NCBI RefSeq assembly: GCF_004118375.1 | Contig: NZ_SDHX01000002.1 | Coordinates: 62,001 to 126,000 of the forward strand | DNA length: 64,000 nucleotides | Direction: 5' to 3' | Source of the DNA: Oleiharenicola lentus | Lineage (GTDB): Bacteria; Verrucomicrobiota; Verrucomicrobiia; Opitutales; Opitutaceae | Part shown: piece after piece, positions 57,492 to 64,000 of the stretch | Position numbering within the stretch: the stretch's first letter is position 1 | Layout of the letters: every line of letters begins with the position of its first letter | Notes under the pieces: model-generated | Told to the model about the DNA's origin: nothing | Database searches by the model: none | What the model saw: only the letters and a program-made list of their open reading frames with translations | Translations under genes and position numbers: made by a program

Positions 57492-58853
57492 TCAGGCCGC
57501 CGGCAGGCGCACCACCACGCGCAGGCCGCTCCGGTCGGAACGGTTCTCGGCGTGGATGCTGCCGCCATGCAGGTCCACAATTCCGCGGCAGATGGCCAGG
57601 CCCAGCCCGGTGCCCAACCTGCCCTCCGGGCGGCTGGCACCCTCGTAACGGGCAAACCGCTCAAAGACGCGCTCCAGCTGGTTTGCCGGCAAACCGGGGC
57701 CCTCGTCGCTCACGGTCAGATGCCAGCCCTCCGGCGTGCGCCGCGACTCGAGCGCAACCGCTCCGCCGCGAGCCGAGAACGCCAGCGCGTTGCTCAGCAG
57801 GTTGAGCAACAATTGGCGCAACAGGCCCGCATCCGCGCGGACTGTGCCGGCCTCATTGGCCGCGAGCACGAAGCCCACGCCGGCGTCCTCCGCGAGCGCG
57901 GCGGCGTCATCGGCGAAATCAGTCACCAACGCGGCGAGATCGAGTTCACGCCGGGGCAACTGCATGGCCCCGCCCTCGGTCTTGGCCAGGAAAAGCAGGC
58001 TCTCGATGATGCGGTTGAGCCGCGCAATCTCGTCGAGTATCTCAGCCACGAGGCCCTCGGACTCGGGGTCGGCGGCCACCCTCGCCTGGAGTTTCTCGGC
58101 ATTGAGGCGGGCCAGCGCGAGCGGAGTCTTCAGCTCGTGCGACGCCTCGGCGGTGAAACGCTGCACCTGTTCGAAGGAACGTTGCAGACGGTCAAAGGTG
58201 CCGTTGAGCAGGTTGATGAGGGCGGTGAGTTCCCCGTGACCGGCGGATTCGGGAATGCGTTCGCTGAGGTTGTCGGCCCGGATGCGGCGGGCGGTGGCCT
58301 CAATCGCGCGCACCGGCTGCAGGGTGGCCCGGCTGAACTGGTAGCCGAGCGCAATGCTGAGCAGCGCAGCCCCGCCGAGCAGCAGGCCGCTTACCCGGGC
58401 GTAATCGCGCAGCATGCGCTCTGTCGGTTCCAGCCGGCTCGCCACCTGGAGGTGCCAGGCTCCGTGCTTGGTGTCCGAGATCAGCACGCGGCCCGCGCCG
58501 GGCAACTCCACCACGCGGTCGCCTTCCATGCCGGCGAGCACCGGCAGCAGTGTCGGACCGAGATTGGCCGAACGGAAAACCACATCCCCGCGCTCGTCGC
58601 GCACCTGGATGTAGAAGAGGGCGATGTCGCTGTCGGCTTCCTCCTTGATCTGATGCCCCACGTCGGCGGCGCTGCGGACGGCCGCCTCGAGGATTTCGCC
58701 GAGCTCCTCGCTCTCCAGCTCGTGCAAATCAACCAGGCTCGTCATGGCCTGCCGGTGCAGCAGCCAGCCGCCGGCCGCGAGCACCGCGGCGGTGGTCAGG
58801 GTGACCAGCACGGCGAACCGCACCGTCAGCCGCAGCGTGAAAGAGTGTCTCAT
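57492..58853 (-). CDS. Membrane sensor histidine kinase (CusS-like)
   Basis: 453 residues. Two transmembrane helices (about 10-30 and 152-170) bracket a periplasmic sensor of ~120 residues. HAMP, HisKA with His239 in EASHELKTPLALARL, and HATPase ([28 protein letters not shown]) follow. The layout is that of heavy-metal/CusS-type kinases. It overlaps the response regulator by ATGA and ends the redox operon. Periplasmic metal or redox sensing is inferred. Confidence 0.9.
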   Translation of the reverse strand: MRHSFTLRLTVRFAVLVTLTTAAVLAAGGWLLHRQAMTSLVDLHELESEELGEILEAAVRSAADVGHQIKEEADSDIALFYIQVRDERGDVVFRSANLGPTLLPVLAGMEGDRVVELPGAGRVLISDTKHGAWHLQVASRLEPTERMLRDYARVSGLLLGGAALLSIALGYQFSRATLQPVRAIEATARRIRADNLSERIPESAGHGELTALINLLNGTFDRLQRSFEQVQRFTAEASHELKTPLALARLNAEKLQARVAADPESEGLVAEILDEIARLNRIIESLLFLAKTEGGAMQLPRRELDLAALVTDFADDAAALAEDAGVGFVLAANEAGTVRADAGLLRQLLLNLLSNALAFSARGGAVALESRRTPEGWHLTVSDEGPGLPANQLERVFERFARYEGASRPEGRLGTGLGLAICRGIVDLHGGSIHAENRSDRSGLRVVVRLPAA

Positions 58854-59530: not shown

Positions 59531-61342
59531 TCACTTGTGCAGCATCTTCACATGCCGGGCGAGTCCAACAATTTCGTCATCGGCCCAGGCCTCGTGTCCG
59601 GCCATCGCCGTGCCGGGCGACCCGAACTTGATCACCCGCGCCAGCCCGGCCTCGTCGCCGTCCGGCACCCGGCGCCAGGCCTCGCTGGTCCAGTCGGGCG
59701 GCGGCACGAGAAAACGCGCCGCCAGCGGCCCGTCCCCCCGTCCTTGCGGTCCGTGGCACTGGGCGCAGTTTTGCGCGAAGAGCTTGGCCGCCTGCACGGC
59801 GGTGACGGCCCCGGCCTGGTTGGGCGGCCGCCAGGTCAGCGCTGTTTCCCAATGTTCGCCGGCGGTGCCTTCGCCCAGAGAGGCCAGGTAGGCGACCAAG
59901 GCCTCGCCCCGACCATCCGCGGAGGTGAAGAGATGCCGGTAGGAGGGCATGCGGGAACCCGGTGACACCGTGCGCGGCGCCTGAAGATGCAGCCGGTTCC
60001 ACTCGGCTGAACGCCGGTTGCCCACGTTGGTCAGGTCCGGTCCCTGCCGGCGATTCCCCGGCAAGGGCGGGGCCCCGCGCAGCAATTCCGTCAGCGGATG
60101 CGCCGGCCCCCACCGCTCAACATCCGATTTCACCCCGGGCCGCACATACTGCGAGTGGCAGTGCATGCAGCCCTCCGCGATATAGACCGCTCGGCCTCGC
60201 GCGACGAGCGGGTCGCCCTCTTCCGCCCGCACCGGCCGGACCCAAGCGAGCAGGGCCAACGCCACGAGCCCGGACCTACGCCACGGCTGCAACGCGAGGA
60301 CCAGCCCGGCGCCGCTGGCGAGAACGAACTCTACCGGCACGCGGTGCAAGTCCTGGGCGAGGCCGATGCCGAGCGCAGATCCCACCCAGCCTGCCACGGC
60401 AAAAACAGCCGCCGCCACCCAGGGCCGGCCATCGCGCGCCGCGAAAGCGACCAGCGCGGTCGAATAAATGGACACTCCGCCCGCATACAAAAACCCCGTG
60501 CCCCCGCCGGACCGATTAGCCCCAAGCGCGAAACACGCGCCCGCCAGGGCCACCCAGGCCACGCCGACCAGCCCCCGCGACCAGCCCCGATCCCAGCACC
60601 AGCCCGCCAGCAGCGCCGCGCCCAGATGCACCATGGCGTTGCCCCACAACCGGCTCTCCCCGGCCCAGGTCGCCTCGCGCAGACCCGACGTCTGCTGGAT
60701 GATGTAGAATGCCGCCGAATCGAGCCACACCAGCGCCAGAAAAACGCCAACCCAACGCCACACAGAAACGCGCGACACAGTCGGCCCGCGAAACCATCCG
60801 GGTTCCATACGCCACAACCCCACCGCCGCCGCCAGCACCAGGCCCGCACTGATCCCGGCCTGCCCCGCCGGACCTGCGGTGAAGATCACCGGCACATTGC
60901 AAAACGCATAAGCGGCCCCCGTGCCGAGGCCGATGCCCCACCCCAGCCGCTCCGGACGCACCAGCGCCCGCAGCCCCGAGGCCAGCGTCACGGTGTTCCA
61001 GCCGAGGGCCAAGCCAATGCCCGCTGCGGTCAGGGTGAGCCCGATCAGCCCGCTCGCCGCGAGCGAGATCACCGCCATCGCCGCGCAGGCGAGATAGGAC
61101 CAGGACAGTTCCCGGACGAAACGCTCCGGCCGAAACCGGCCCCACGCCAGCAGGCTGCCACCGACGCCGCCCGCCCCCAGGCCGGCCATCACGCCGCGCA
61201 GGCCGCGACCCTCGCCGAGCAGCTCCCGCACCTGCGACAGAAAGGAGAATTCCGCAAAAAGCAGAAAATACCCGTAGGTCGCCGCGACCGCCAGCGCCGC
61301 CAGGCCCAGATTGTCACCGCGGGTTGGGCCGGCTTCATTCAT
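59531..61342 (-). CDS. Fusion of MFS-like membrane domain with two cytochrome c domains
   Basis: 603 residues. Residues ~12-365 hold about 11-12 hydrophobic helices with an MFS-like look (two halves, ALAVAATYGYFLLFAEFSFL at the start). Then a cytochrome c domain resembling CcoO of cbb3 oxidase: C392MHC395H396SQYVRPG, GPDLTNVG, and SRMPSYRHLF with the axial Met. A second domain follows with C526AQC529H530GPQGRGDG and an AMAGHE-type Met ligand. The protein would anchor two haem c groups on the periplasmic side. Such a fusion is not one I know from the standard oxidase families. Overlaps the upstream small membrane gene by 8 bp. Confidence 0.8.
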   Translation of the reverse strand: MNEAGPTRGDNLGLAALAVAATYGYFLLFAEFSFLSQVRELLGEGRGLRGVMAGLGAGGVGGSLLAWGRFRPERFVRELSWSYLACAAMAVISLAASGLIGLTLTAAGIGLALGWNTVTLASGLRALVRPERLGWGIGLGTGAAYAFCNVPVIFTAGPAGQAGISAGLVLAAAVGLWRMEPGWFRGPTVSRVSVWRWVGVFLALVWLDSAAFYIIQQTSGLREATWAGESRLWGNAMVHLGAALLAGWCWDRGWSRGLVGVAWVALAGACFALGANRSGGGTGFLYAGGVSIYSTALVAFAARDGRPWVAAAVFAVAGWVGSALGIGLAQDLHRVPVEFVLASGAGLVLALQPWRRSGLVALALLAWVRPVRAEEGDPLVARGRAVYIAEGCMHCHSQYVRPGVKSDVERWGPAHPLTELLRGAPPLPGNRRQGPDLTNVGNRRSAEWNRLHLQAPRTVSPGSRMPSYRHLFTSADGRGEALVAYLASLGEGTAGEHWETALTWRPPNQAGAVTAVQAAKLFAQNCAQCHGPQGRGDGPLAARFLVPPPDWTSEAWRRVPDGDEAGLARVIKFGSPGTAMAGHEAWADDEIVGLARHVKMLHK

Positions 61343-61733
61343 CGCGATACCTCGCCAGCAACACGCTTTGGACCACGACCAGCCCCAGATCGGCGACCGT
61401 AACCGCCAGCCAGGCCGGTGACCAGCCGCCGGCCACAACCATCACGGCGGTGAACGACCCCGCTCCTGCGCGGAAAATCCGCGAAAAATCAAAAACCGCC
61501 CGCAACGACCGGTCCTCGCCCCGCCAGCCGGCCACCAGGTAACTGAGTCCCACCGCTCCGACGAACACGCCCACGAATCGCACAAATTCCAACGCCTCCG
61601 CGCCGGGCGGCGTCACCCCCATTTGCCGCAGTGTCCAGTCCGGTAGCACGACCAGTCCGAGGCCGGTAGCGGCATCCATCGCTCCGGCCGCCAGGGCCAG
61701 CAGGTGACTCCAGCGGGGCAAAGGGTGGTTCAT
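61335..61733 (-). CDS. Small integral membrane protein of the redox operon
   Basis: 132 residues, four probable transmembrane helices (starting LLALAAGAMDAATGLGLVV and ending VADLGLVVVQSVLLARY). I do not recognise a named family. ATG 61733 overlaps the oxidase-like gene stop as ATGA; the 3' end overlaps the MFS-cytochrome gene by 8 bp (ATGAATGA). Operon position suggests an accessory subunit of the same complex. Confidence 0.75.
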   Translation of the reverse strand: MNHPLPRWSHLLALAAGAMDAATGLGLVVLPDWTLRQMGVTPPGAEALEFVRFVGVFVGAVGLSYLVAGWRGEDRSLRAVFDFSRIFRAGAGSFTAVMVVAGGWSPAWLAVTVADLGLVVVQSVLLARYRDE

Positions 61734-62956
61734 CGCCAAGCCTCCTTGAGCCAAAGCGCCGAGGCCGCCGCCATGGCCAGTCCCGCGGCGAGCCGGCCGC
61801 CGTAGATGGCCTGCGTCCACGCTTCGCTGCGGAAGAGTGCGCCGGCCGTGGCGTTTTCCACCCAACCCAGCGCCAGCAGCAAGCCCACCTGCACCGCGCA
61901 GCCCAGCTGCCAGAGCCAAAACGCGGGGCGGCGCGACAGCCCGCCGCCTAGCGTGTGCAGCACGAGCGCGTTCACCGCCGTGACCAGTCCCGCCATCGCG
62001 AGATGCGCGTGGGCGACGAGTCCGTTGGTGAACTTCAACCGCTCCGAGATCCCGGGAAGAAAGGTCAGCCACCCCGTCACCACCAGGAGCAGCCACCACG
62101 CCCACGCGGCCCACAGCCAGCGGCCCGAGTCCGCGCTCCAGTCGAAGCGCCGCCAATACAGCGGCAGAAGCGGCACCCAGGCCAGCAGCAGGCCAAGACC
62201 GATGATCTGCCCTGGCACATGGTGGGAAACCGAACCATGGCGCATGCCGGCGAACATGCCCCAGGACGCAACCAGCGCGACCCAGAACCAGCCCGCGGGT
62301 TTTGTGCGCCGCCGCCCCAGCATAAACGGCAGCAACCCGAAAAGCGTCACAATACCGAGCGTGGACCCGAGCAAGGCCGCCCCGGTGGCACCGCCGCTGT
62401 CCGGATTCACCGCCGGGTAGTAGTCGCGTCCGGTGGACACATAAAGCAGAGGCGGCACCGCGAGCAACCCGACGAGCGGAATGCCGCGAACCAGCCGTTC
62501 GCTTCGTCCCATGCTCCCGCGCCGCCGCCAAGTGTGTGCGGCCAACACGGCCCACAGGCCAACCATCGCGGCCGGCAGCACGCCCCGCGTCCAGCCGTGC
62601 CAGTCGAGAAACAGCTTGCCGCTCGTGTCACCCGCCAGCCACGCGACCCCGCCGAGCAGAAGCGCAAGCGACCAGCCGCCGAGCGCGAACCGGGCCTGCG
62701 TCACCACCCGCGGATCAGCCGCGTCGAGATACCAGTGGAGCAAAGCCGCCACCAGCGGAAGCGCGCACCAGCCGTAAAGCTGCCAGTTGAGATGCAGGGG
62801 CATCCACCGCCCGTAGGTCAGTGGCGCAACAAGGTCGCCCAACTCCGGCCAAAGCAGGCTGGCCGCCAGCCACAGGCCCACGGCATTGGCCGCAGCCAGC
62901 CAGATCAGGCTGTGCCGCGTCGCCACCTGCGCGATGGTGATCCGGGCCGTGTTCAT
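61730..62956 (-). CDS. Diverged haem-copper oxidase subunit I-like (CcoN-like) protein
   Basis: 408 residues, about 12 transmembrane helices. His55 in MPLHLNWQLYGW corresponds to the low-spin haem ligand of helix II, and H326-A-H328 in NGLVAHAHLAMAG corresponds to the HxH haem ligands of helix X. In the helix VI region (NPDSGGATGAALLGSTLG) the CuB-binding His is replaced. In the helix VII region AGMRHGSVSHH only one or two His lie near the expected site. It is shorter than CcoN. This suggests a haem-binding, probably non-copper membrane protein; alignment is by eye. It overlaps the ATPase and small membrane genes. Confidence 0.7.
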   Translation of the reverse strand: MNTARITIAQVATRHSLIWLAAANAVGLWLAASLLWPELGDLVAPLTYGRWMPLHLNWQLYGWCALPLVAALLHWYLDAADPRVVTQARFALGGWSLALLLGGVAWLAGDTSGKLFLDWHGWTRGVLPAAMVGLWAVLAAHTWRRRGSMGRSERLVRGIPLVGLLAVPPLLYVSTGRDYYPAVNPDSGGATGAALLGSTLGIVTLFGLLPFMLGRRRTKPAGWFWVALVASWGMFAGMRHGSVSHHVPGQIIGLGLLLAWVPLLPLYWRRFDWSADSGRWLWAAWAWWLLLVVTGWLTFLPGISERLKFTNGLVAHAHLAMAGLVTAVNALVLHTLGGGLSRRPAFWLWQLGCAVQVGLLLALGWVENATAGALFRSEAWTQAIYGGRLAAGLAMAAASALWLKEAWR

Positions 62957-63627
62957 GTCTCCGCGAGCCGCCCGTTGCGCATCCGCACGAGGCGGTGACA
63001 GGCTTCCGCGAAGCGGCGTTCGTGCGTCGCGATCACGACGGCGATGCCATCGCGCTCGGCAAGATCCTTGAGCAGGGCGAAAACCGCGCTGCCGGTCTCC
63101 TCGTCGAGCGAGCCGGTCGGCTCATCGGCGAGCAGCAGCCGCGGCGAGTTCATCAGCGCCCGGCAGATGGCCGTGCGCTGGCGCTCACCGCCGGAAAGAT
63201 CCTGGATGCGGTGGCCCAGCCGGTGGGCCAGCCCGAGTTGCTCGGCCAGCAACCGGATCCGCTGCGTGCGCTGGGCCGATGATACTCCCGTGGCCAGGGC
63301 CGGCACGGCGATGTTCTCCTCCATCGTCAAATCGGGGATCAGGTTGTGCAGTTGGAAAACAAAGCCGAGGTGCCGGCGCCGCAGTTCGATGCGGGCAGCT
63401 TCGTCGCGGGGATCGAGTCCGCAGACGCTCAGTTCGCCCCGGTCCGGCACGTCGAGACCGCCGAGCAGGTGCAACAGCGTGCTCTTGCCGGAGCCGGACG
63501 CGCCCCACAGCGCGACGATTTCACCCGGGCGCACTTGCAGGGACACCTCATGCAGCACGGGCAAGCGGCCGCCGTCATAACTCTTGGCGAGGTGCGTCGC
63601 GCGAACCGGCAGGACAGTCTCACTCAT
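62953..63627 (-). CDS. LolD/MacB-type ABC transporter ATPase
   Basis: 224 residues. Walker A GASGSGKSTLLHLLGG, Q-loop VFQLHNLIPDLTMEEN, signature LSGGERQRTAICRAL, Walker B LLLADEPTGSLDEETG and switch His in ATHERRFAEACH. Size and Q-loop match the LolD/MacB/FtsE group, which partners FtsX-like permeases. ATG 63627 overlaps the permease stop by 8 bp (ATGAGTGA); the 3' end overlaps the oxidase-like gene by 4 nt. May export or reorganise a lipoprotein or metal-loading factor for the complex. Confidence 0.92.
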   Translation of the reverse strand: MSETVLPVRATHLAKSYDGGRLPVLHEVSLQVRPGEIVALWGASGSGKSTLLHLLGGLDVPDRGELSVCGLDPRDEAARIELRRRHLGFVFQLHNLIPDLTMEENIAVPALATGVSSAQRTQRIRLLAEQLGLAHRLGHRIQDLSGGERQRTAICRALMNSPRLLLADEPTGSLDEETGSAVFALLKDLAERDGIAVVIATHERRFAEACHRLVRMRNGRLAET

Positions 63628-64000
63628 AACGCAGGGCCTCCGCCGGTTGAATGCGCGACGCAAAGCGCGCCGGATAAATCGCCCCGAGCACCGCGGTCGC
63701 CAGGGCGGTCACCACGATGCCCACGAGCACGAGCGGCTGGATGGCGGCCTGCACGTAGCCGTTGAATTGCGGCAGGCGCTCGACCACGGCCAAGACCGCA
63801 AATCCGAGTCCCAGCCCGGTAACGATGCCGAGTGCCGCGACCGACGCCGCCTCGGCGAAGATCAGGCCGGCCACCTGCGGGCTGGAGAATCCGCATACGC
63901 GGAGCACCGCGATTTCCCGGATGCGGCTGAAAACTGACAAGAGCATCGTGTTGGCGACGCCCAGTCCGCCGAGTGCGAACGCACACAGGCCGACGGCCCA
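63620..64000 (-). CDS. FtsX-like ABC permease (5' part beyond window)
   Basis: Partial: the frame is open to the right edge and about 126 residues are visible, ending ARFASRIQPAEALRYE. NTMLLSVFSRIREIAVLRVCG and PQVAGLIFAEAASV match the final membrane part of FtsX/MacB permeases, with three hydrophobic helices and the typical C-terminal ...ARFASRIQPAEALRYE. Partner of the overlapping LolD-type ATPase. Confidence 0.88.
   Translation of the reverse strand, partial: WAVGLCAFALGGLGVANTMLLSVFSRIREIAVLRVCGFSSPQVAGLIFAEAASVAALGIVTGLGLGFAVLAVVERLPQFNGYVQAAIQPLVLVGIVVTALATAVLGAIYPARFASRIQPAEALRYE

Follow-up and report, generated by a model that had tools for sequence, protein, structure and literature searches.

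A nine-gene run of Oleiharenicola lentus encodes a CcoN-like protein lacking the canonical CuB histidines and possibly serves envelope-lipid redox chemistry

The stretch analysed here (the window) comprises 64,000 nucleotides of Oleiharenicola lentus (contig NZ_SDHX01000002.1, positions 62,001 to 126,000), a genome of 4.71 Mb in two contigs (G000). Near its right edge, and continuing into the sequence to the right of it (L002; window coordinate = L002 + 49999), the minus strand carries one unbroken run of nine co-directional genes, encoding in order a YceI-family protein, a prenyl-diphosphate synthase, a permease, a LolD-like ATPase, a CcoN-like protein, a small membrane protein, a fusion protein, a response regulator and a sensor kinase (Table 1), with neighbours overlapping by 4-8 bp or separated by gaps of 8-9 bp. 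A preliminary description, made from the window alone, had reported seven genes packed on one strand with overlaps or gaps of at most 9 bp; the packing is confirmed, and the rightward sequence adds the prenyl synthase and yceI genes, giving nine. Upstream of yceI there is a gap of 92 bp, followed by a gene that matches DUF885 weakly, under the gathering threshold. The CcoN-like protein keeps the presumed haem histidines of its relatives and lacks the canonical three-histidine CuB set, and since it shares an operon with isoprenoid, lipid-carrying and cytochrome genes, this suggests the reuse of an oxidase scaffold for envelope-lipid redox chemistry rather than respiration.

The CcoN-like protein of the window gives zero Pfam matches when searched alone (at E 1), a single NCBIfam match, weak at E 0.0013, to a CcoN/O model, and, among solved structures, one weak match only, to an NDH subunit (E 0.0049). 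The family profile is more informative: COX1 is matched by 9 of 22 family members, the best solved relative of the profile in the whole PDB is CcoN, at an E of 0.66, and in the genomes the profile detects further frames of 437-811 codons (E down to 1.5e-9). In profile-profile comparisons the family matches CcoN at E 2.9e-5 over 370 columns and one degenerate CcoN-like sequence at E 4.5e-6, the values being 0.39 for aa3, 0.75 for a B-type set and 0.2 for the negative control, a set of major facilitator superfamily (MFS) proteins. The AlphaFold model (mean pLDDT 82.7, pTM 0.85) has the predicted 12-helix fold of subunit I, with cbb3 CcoN as the top Foldseek match (E 3.9e-7) and with CcoN and NorB tied in VIA-align (Z 25.5; 379 residues, 3.8 A). 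A tree that includes aa3 and B-type outgroups and holds no NorB unites the family, on a long branch of its own, with CcoN and the degenerate form at support 100, the branching order of the family, the degenerate CcoN and CcoN being unsettled (supports 62 and 76). The preliminary description had allowed that these genes might prove to be well-described subunits of a known oxidase or nitrogen-oxide reductase; in the Pfam and NCBIfam-type model scans, no curated family above its own cut-off makes the CcoN-like protein a subunit of either.

Ligand positions were read from an alignment with ten CcoN proteins for 35 CcoN-like sequences, leaving out of the residue counts one locus (L027) whose record reads N across the HxH of its CcoN-like gene (about 5100). 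His55 in transmembrane helix 2 (TM2) and His316 and His318 in TM10 are kept in 35/35, from which the protein would be expected to contain haem. The CuB positions come from two alignments that differ in the register of TM6, and counts are given for both. In the main register, none of the 35 sequences has all three CuB histidines (one in TM6 and a pair in TM7), two are found in 2, one in 20 and none in 13, and the histidine at the TM6 position is missing in 33/35; in the alternative register, with His245/His246, a few residues further along, read as the TM7 pair, the full trio appears in one sequence (L014). The earlier reading of an oxidase-subunit-I-like protein without most CuB ligands is thus borne out, with the complete trio in 0/35 in the main register. 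Judged by these aligned residues, the protein is outside the catalytic oxidases, and because the canonical CuB set is incomplete, it is unlikely to be an ordinary oxidase. An HH pair at positions 245/246 occurs in 28/35 in a predicted loop, where metal binding is conceivable in the alternative register, so the claim is limited to the missing canonical CuB site and a second metal is still conceivable.

The fusion of MFS, CcoO and cytochrome c parts noted in the preliminary description is real, by the predicted fold of its MFS part and by domain matches (Table 1). The modelled MFS part has a Foldseek probability of 1.00 and VIA-align Z values up to 29.2; MFS_1 is matched by 3 of its 14 homologues, and the window part alone gives no MFS_1 match. 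The MFS domain is also found in shorter frames of 372-455 codons (e.g. G013, G018 and G373). The CcoO domain matches solved cbb3 CcoO (E 1.3e-20), and PF13442 is matched by the second cytochrome c domain, which also has a weak CcoP match (24 bits against a cut-off of 179.95). Both CxxCH motifs, as well as Met465 and Met580, are invariant in 10/10 sequences.

The operon prenyl synthases, which are clearly set apart from any additional prenyl synthases that these genomes encode, have the first Asp-rich motif in 28/28 sequences and the second in 27/27 (the 28th being cut). The residue five before the first Asp-rich motif is Ala in 27 and Ser in one, and is Tyr in the Escherichia coli farnesyl-diphosphate (FPP) synthase, used as ruler. 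Judged by this residue, as usual for the family, the operon enzymes would yield products longer than C15. The closest solved structure of the permease is LolE (7arh_E, E 3.7e-14), with LolF among the next and both before MacB; the curated Lol cut-offs are not reached (223.5 of 307.75 bits for LolD and 97.1 of 362.45 bits for LolC/E). With the permease nearest to LolE/LolF and adjoining an isoprenoid synthase and YceI, lipid extraction is likelier than complex assembly. An isoprenoid is reported in most solved YceI structures (PMC9113575).

Table 1. Features of the nine-gene run in window coordinates or, beyond the window edge, in L002 coordinates; start codons are the analyst's choice
Feature	Position	Strand	Basis or remark
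CusS/CopS-like sensor histidine kinase, 453 aa, last gene of the run	57492..58853	-	HisKA, HAMP, HATPase_c; TIGR01386 235 bits, below cut-off 292.55
OmpR/PhoB-type (CopR-type) response regulator, 223 aa	58850..59521	-	Response_reg and Trans_reg_C; TIGR01387 211 bits, below cut-off 279.2
MFS-CcoO-cytochrome c fusion, 603 aa	59531..61342	-	domain matches, fold, invariant haem c motifs
Predicted MFS-fold membrane part of fusion, residues ~11-355	60278..61312	-	fold match; stand-alone in some genomes
CcoO/FixO monohaem cytochrome c domain, fusion residues 378-474	59921..60211	-	PF02433 E 2.2e-28
Second monohaem cytochrome c domain, fusion residues 514-602	59537..59803	-	PF00034/PF13442, E 1e-12
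Small membrane protein, 132 aa, weakly DUF4345-like	61335..61733	-	PF14248 E 0.021, below gathering; alignment of 8 family members
CcoN-like haem-copper-superfamily protein without three-His CuB set, 408 aa	61730..62956	-	profile, fold, alignment
His55 codon, presumed low-spin haem ligand, TM2	62792..62794	-	aligned with CcoN TM2 His; 35/35
His316 and His318 codons, presumed haem ligands, TM10 HxH	62003..62011	-	aligned with CcoN GHVHAG; 35/35
LolD-type ATPase, 224 aa	62953..63627	-	ABC_tran E 1.7e-34; TIGR02211 223.5 bits, below cut-off 307.75
LolE/LolF/MacB-type permease, 370 aa; C-terminal part in window	63620..64000	-	MacB_PCD and FtsX; start L002:14733, beyond window edge
Prenyl-diphosphate synthase, 298 aa	L002:14742-15638, outside window	-	polyprenyl_synt E 5.3e-33
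yceI, 186 aa	L002:15635-16195, outside window	-	PF04264 E 9e-17
Regulator box	L002:16218-16255, outside window		four half-sites upstream of yceI

Of 387 Verrucomicrobiota genomes scanned with the profile, 20 have strong CcoN-like matches (at least 339 bits) and 18 have weak matches only (at most 38 bits). The MFS domain is present in 23 of the 387, including 20/20 genomes with the CcoN-like protein and 3/367 without it; the Fisher values and the identity correlations given below ignore kinship, and the p-value for this co-occurrence is optimistic. In 34 loci around the CcoN-like gene, as detected, YceI is found in 32, the CcoO domain in 30 (the other four being at contig ends), FtsX and LolD in 29 each, the prenyl synthase and the MFS domain in 28 each, the small protein in 24, the regulator and kinase in 14, and a hydrolase of the metallo-beta-lactamase (MBL) fold in 9. 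The gene order is mostly as in the window, with L027 and L030 rearranged. This recurrence in 34 loci rules out chance neighbours, and the break in synteny that the preliminary description had considered is not seen. Pairwise identities of the operon proteins (with stops inside match ranges written X) are correlated, with rho of 0.45-0.90, as expected for a co-inherited unit. The carrier loci belong to Opitutaceae, a metagenome-assembled genome of Chthoniobacteraceae, Methylacidiphilaceae and two further families (f23 and f44). A scan of genome contigs with the single protein, which reaches close relatives only, found 14 loci, all in Verrucomicrobiota, and 72,556 plasmids queried with the CcoN-like and MFS sequences gave zero matches.

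A small version of the system, in G213 and G225, consists of yceI, the prenyl synthase, the CcoN-like and CcoO-cytochrome c genes, the regulator and the kinase, with no transporter and no MFS part. The preliminary description had proposed a haem-based quinol/cytochrome electron-transfer or sensing complex, assembled with its own ABC transporter, and had noted a two-component system in the gene set. The electron-transfer module with its two-component system is plausible; its assembly by the transporter is unsupported, since in L084, L085, L087 and L093 the CcoN-like gene lacks an adjacent transporter of this kind and G018 has a permease orthologue without a CcoN-like gene. Some other arrangements were observed. 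In G018 (L126), the FtsX-LolD pair and the MFS gene flank his genes, and a gene for a multihaem cytochrome c (L126:13118-15364), that is, a different redox partner, lies just upstream of the orthologous FtsX-LolD pair. In G013 (L076 and L077), the CcoN-like gene is followed by a lone CcoO domain, with the MFS protein about 17 kb away beside hisG. The MBL-fold hydrolase adjoins the cluster in L018, L027, L030, L031, L081, L087, L088, L091 and L092 and matches PF12706 in all four sequences scanned; we take it to be NAPE-PLD-like, and it possibly acts on lipids as part of the system.

Upstream of yceI there is a box of four half-sites with an 11-bp period (ATGAA-N6-TTMAT-N6-TTMAn-N6-TTMAT), followed by TAnnnT in 15/19 and then by the start codon. 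At a score of at least 16 of 20, there are 21 box sites in 19 of 35 loci, all with a start codon 21-23 bp downstream; a shuffled control (one shuffle of 456,640 bases, keeping single-base composition) had no site at a score of at least 15, and the 64-kb window has no further box at a score of at least 14. OmpR/PhoB-type regulators usually bind direct repeats of 11 bp near the -10 element. An orthologue of the regulator was found at E 1e-60 in 14 of 22 genomes searched, the best copies in the 13 others among these 14 being 69-84% identical. The box stands before yceI in 17/20 carriers with the regulator orthologue versus 0/6 testable carriers without it, a count that excludes L031, whose sequence ends before its yceI start; the box loci L026 and L029 stand outside the regulator search. 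As in an OmpR/PhoB-type regulon, 11-bp-period repeats before the operon thus co-occur with the regulator, which would bind the box and drive a probably leaderless nine-gene transcript.

The 19 boxes before yceI fit the box model (R1) by construction, which is not the case for ten other boxes examined, taken from the larger site set of the sequence-only model (with several others at 30-36 bits). Nine of these ten precede genes for sulfatase-family membrane enzymes (6), a PAP2 protein (1), an isopentenyl-diphosphate (IPP) isomerase (1) and a second YceI (1), and the remaining one precedes a gene without family. One boxed sulfatase-family protein is YejM/PbgA-like, with DUF3413 (108 bits against a cut-off of 825), and the window genome's own further box (C1:171417) stands before a sulfatase-family gene with a weak lipoteichoic-acid-synthase match (31 bits). 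The boxed PAP2 reaches 138.6 bits to lipid A phosphatase (cut-off 275), the boxed IPP isomerase, in G141, is above its cut-off, and the second boxed yceI lies upstream of the regulator gene in G003. The box is absent from six weaker NUDIX controls.

Here it is proposed, tentatively and with somewhat less than even confidence, that the operon encodes an envelope isoprenoid-lipid redox system under two-component control, resembling BcnA-LcoA and containing a CuB-less CcoN/CcoO module. An envelope or oxidant signal would activate the CusS/CopR-like pair, whose regulator would bind the four-half-site box and drive the transcript. The prenyl-diphosphate synthase would provide an isoprenoid, and the LolD/LolF-like transporter would lift the isoprenoid lipid from the inner membrane and pass it to the periplasmic YceI. 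The CcoN-like protein and the CcoO and cytochrome c domains could then shuttle electrons between cytochrome c or the quinone pool and the carried lipid, which would serve the outer envelope by mediating redox reactions or quenching radicals. The activity, haem content, substrate, electron direction, lipid transport, box binding, leaderless start and physiological role in this scheme are what we infer. It is more doubtful that these genes represent a third use of the haem-copper scaffold, in which a CuB-less CcoN and the haems of CcoO wire the cytochrome or quinone pool to an operon-made, YceI-carried isoprenoid within a dedicated envelope-lipid regulon. If true, the oxygen-reducing metal of a respiratory oxidase subunit can be lost while the subunit persists, with its haem ligands intact, for another redox task, and there would be an electron-transport branch ending on envelope lipids instead of O2 or NO. 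The gene set, the promoter box and the regulon offer a handle on how YceI-family isoprenoid carriers gain or give electrons.

Several observations weigh against the proposed envelope-lipid system, beginning with the HH pair at 245/246 described above. The CcoN-like protein is kept without the operon prenyl synthase in G009, G013 and G326, and no YceI lies beside the CcoN-like gene in G009 and G259, so the link to isoprenoids does not hold for every carrier. In G018 the permease and the MFS gene are present and the CcoN-like gene was not found. The first substrate motif of the 28 prenyl synthases has Lys in 15, Ser in 9, Arg in 3 and Gly in 1, and the window enzyme is among those with Ser, at a position where the E. 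coli ruler and 15/28 members have Lys. No gene for a quinone head or a prenyltransferase was seen in the run. Three regulator-bearing genomes (G013, G024 and G188) lack the box before yceI; in G024 and G188 it stands about 3.3-3.7 kb further upstream, before a sulfatase-family gene and with a PAP2 gene between box and yceI, and G013 has a weaker box elsewhere. The regulator and the box were not found in loci outside family f1 (for the regulator, none in 5/5 searched carriers at E 1e-60), so this regulation is not common to all carriers. The box predicted before the IPP isomerase was found in none of the 5/5 other genomes with a true IPP isomerase, the site being local to G141.

Other explanations account for parts of the same gene set. 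It is unlikely, while still conceivable, that the CcoN-like and CcoO parts oxidise or reduce an isoprenoid for a secreted or outer-membrane lipid in secondary metabolism, with the LolD/LolF-like transporter and the MFS part as exporters of this lipid and with a biosynthetic and not a protective role for the redox complex. The prenyl synthase, YceI, this transporter and the MFS part do lie in one run, and the box precedes an IPP isomerase in G141; however, inspection of the run showed no tailoring gene such as a cyclase or a prenyltransferase, and most other boxes examined precede envelope-modifying enzyme families. The combination of b-haem ligands with two c-haem motifs in one gene set would also fit a quinol:cytochrome c oxidoreductase on a CcoN scaffold, an accessory complex III passing electrons from quinol through b haems to CcoO and cytochrome c, the more so as bc1-type cytochrome b (PF00033) was not found in 10/18 genomes searched. 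The spread is patchy (20/387), YceI, the prenyl synthase and the other boxes would be left unexplained, and the window genome has, by sequence inspection, ActC/ActD-like genes of alternative complex III, which lower the case for a complex III replacement, so this explanation is improbable. Other COX1-family proteins are encoded at four places of the window genome, one of them degenerate, and together with the ActC/ActD-like genes they indicate that respiration has its own enzymes.

These COX1-family proteins also argue against a protein that is catalytic after all, reducing O2, NO or another small molecule at a high-spin haem, with an unusual second metal held by His245/His246 or with none, for which NO dismutase is the comparison. 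Both TM10 histidines and, in most members, the HH pair are kept, a TM6 histidine occurs in two members, one member has all three histidines in the alternative register, and the fold is equally close to NorB and CcoN; set against the loss of the TM6 histidine from nearly all members and the location of the HH pair in a predicted loop, catalysis appears quite improbable. Very unlikely is a redox or copper sensor, or a cbb3 assembly factor, with the complex informing the CusS-like kinase about the state of the cytochrome pool. The adjoining kinase is of the heavy-metal-sensor subfamily (below cut-off), and the MFS and CcoO parts are reminiscent of CcoA and cbb3 biogenesis; however, kinase and regulator are adjacent in 14/34 loci only and unlinked in G003, G023 and G424, and the regulator orthologue is missing from the searched carriers outside family f1.

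In the open-licence literature searched, no recognised description of the operon was found, part of the search having used the spelling 'Verrucomicrobia', which misses 'Verrucomicrobiota'. Among known systems, the cbb3 oxidase (CcoN-CcoO-CcoP) shares the CcoN-like fold, the haem histidines and the CcoO domain. In contrast to it, the operon protein does not keep the CuB ligand set, which makes an ordinary cbb3 oxidase unlikely, is shorter (408 aa versus 463-471 residues in solved CcoN chains) and forms a separate long branch, and the operon CcoO has an MFS part fused to it where cbb3 CcoO has an anchor of its own. NorB is as close in predicted fold as CcoN (Z 25.5), whereas the operon partner is CcoO-like, no NorC is among the matches listed and the three-histidine set is missing; an NO reductase is disfavoured by the CcoO-type partner.

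The degenerate CcoN-like protein, which occurs in the same phylum (L117, L124 and L133-L136), gives a slightly better profile match than CcoN and also has CcoO-like neighbours; however, it has lost the TM10 HxH in 5/5, whereas the operon protein keeps it. Its TM2 histidine is missing in 4/5 (L124:4178-5635 on C1 of the window genome, L133, L134, L135 and L136), and in all three genomes with inspected neighbours it lies close to alternative-complex-III-like genes. As read from these aligned residues, the loss of metals from CcoN took place on more than one occasion or stepwise. A C-type oxidase beside alternative complex III is described only for verrucomicrobial methanotrophs and Opitutaceae in a review (PMC8498564), and this oxidase may be non-catalytic. 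As an annotation warning, proteins called 'cbb3 subunit I' in Verrucomicrobiota may be non-catalytic.

Like LolDF and LolCDE, the operon has a LolD-type ATPase and a permease nearest to LolE/LolF; unlike them, it scores under the Lol cut-offs and is linked to YceI instead of LolA, and about 1.4 kb upstream (L002:17579-19487) there is a separate Lol-like pair, read from the sequence as a second LolD-like ATPase with a permease of LolC/E type, probably representing the housekeeping Lol genes. The nearest system found that has been studied by experiment is BcnA, a YceI lipocalin, with LcoA, a cytochrome b561, which guard the envelope against lipid peroxyl radicals; re-reduction of the carried quinone by the cytochrome is what the authors of that study suggest, an electron exchange of YceI-family carriers that by their own account was not directly examined (PMC9113575). 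As in BcnA-LcoA, the operon encodes a YceI-family carrier together with a membrane protein that, by its conserved histidines, would carry b haem, and it would act in envelope lipid chemistry. Unlike LcoA, its membrane part is derived from CcoN and does not belong to the cytochrome b561 family, and the operon adds c-type haems, a prenyl synthase, a LolD/LolF-like transporter and, in many carriers, a dedicated two-component system.

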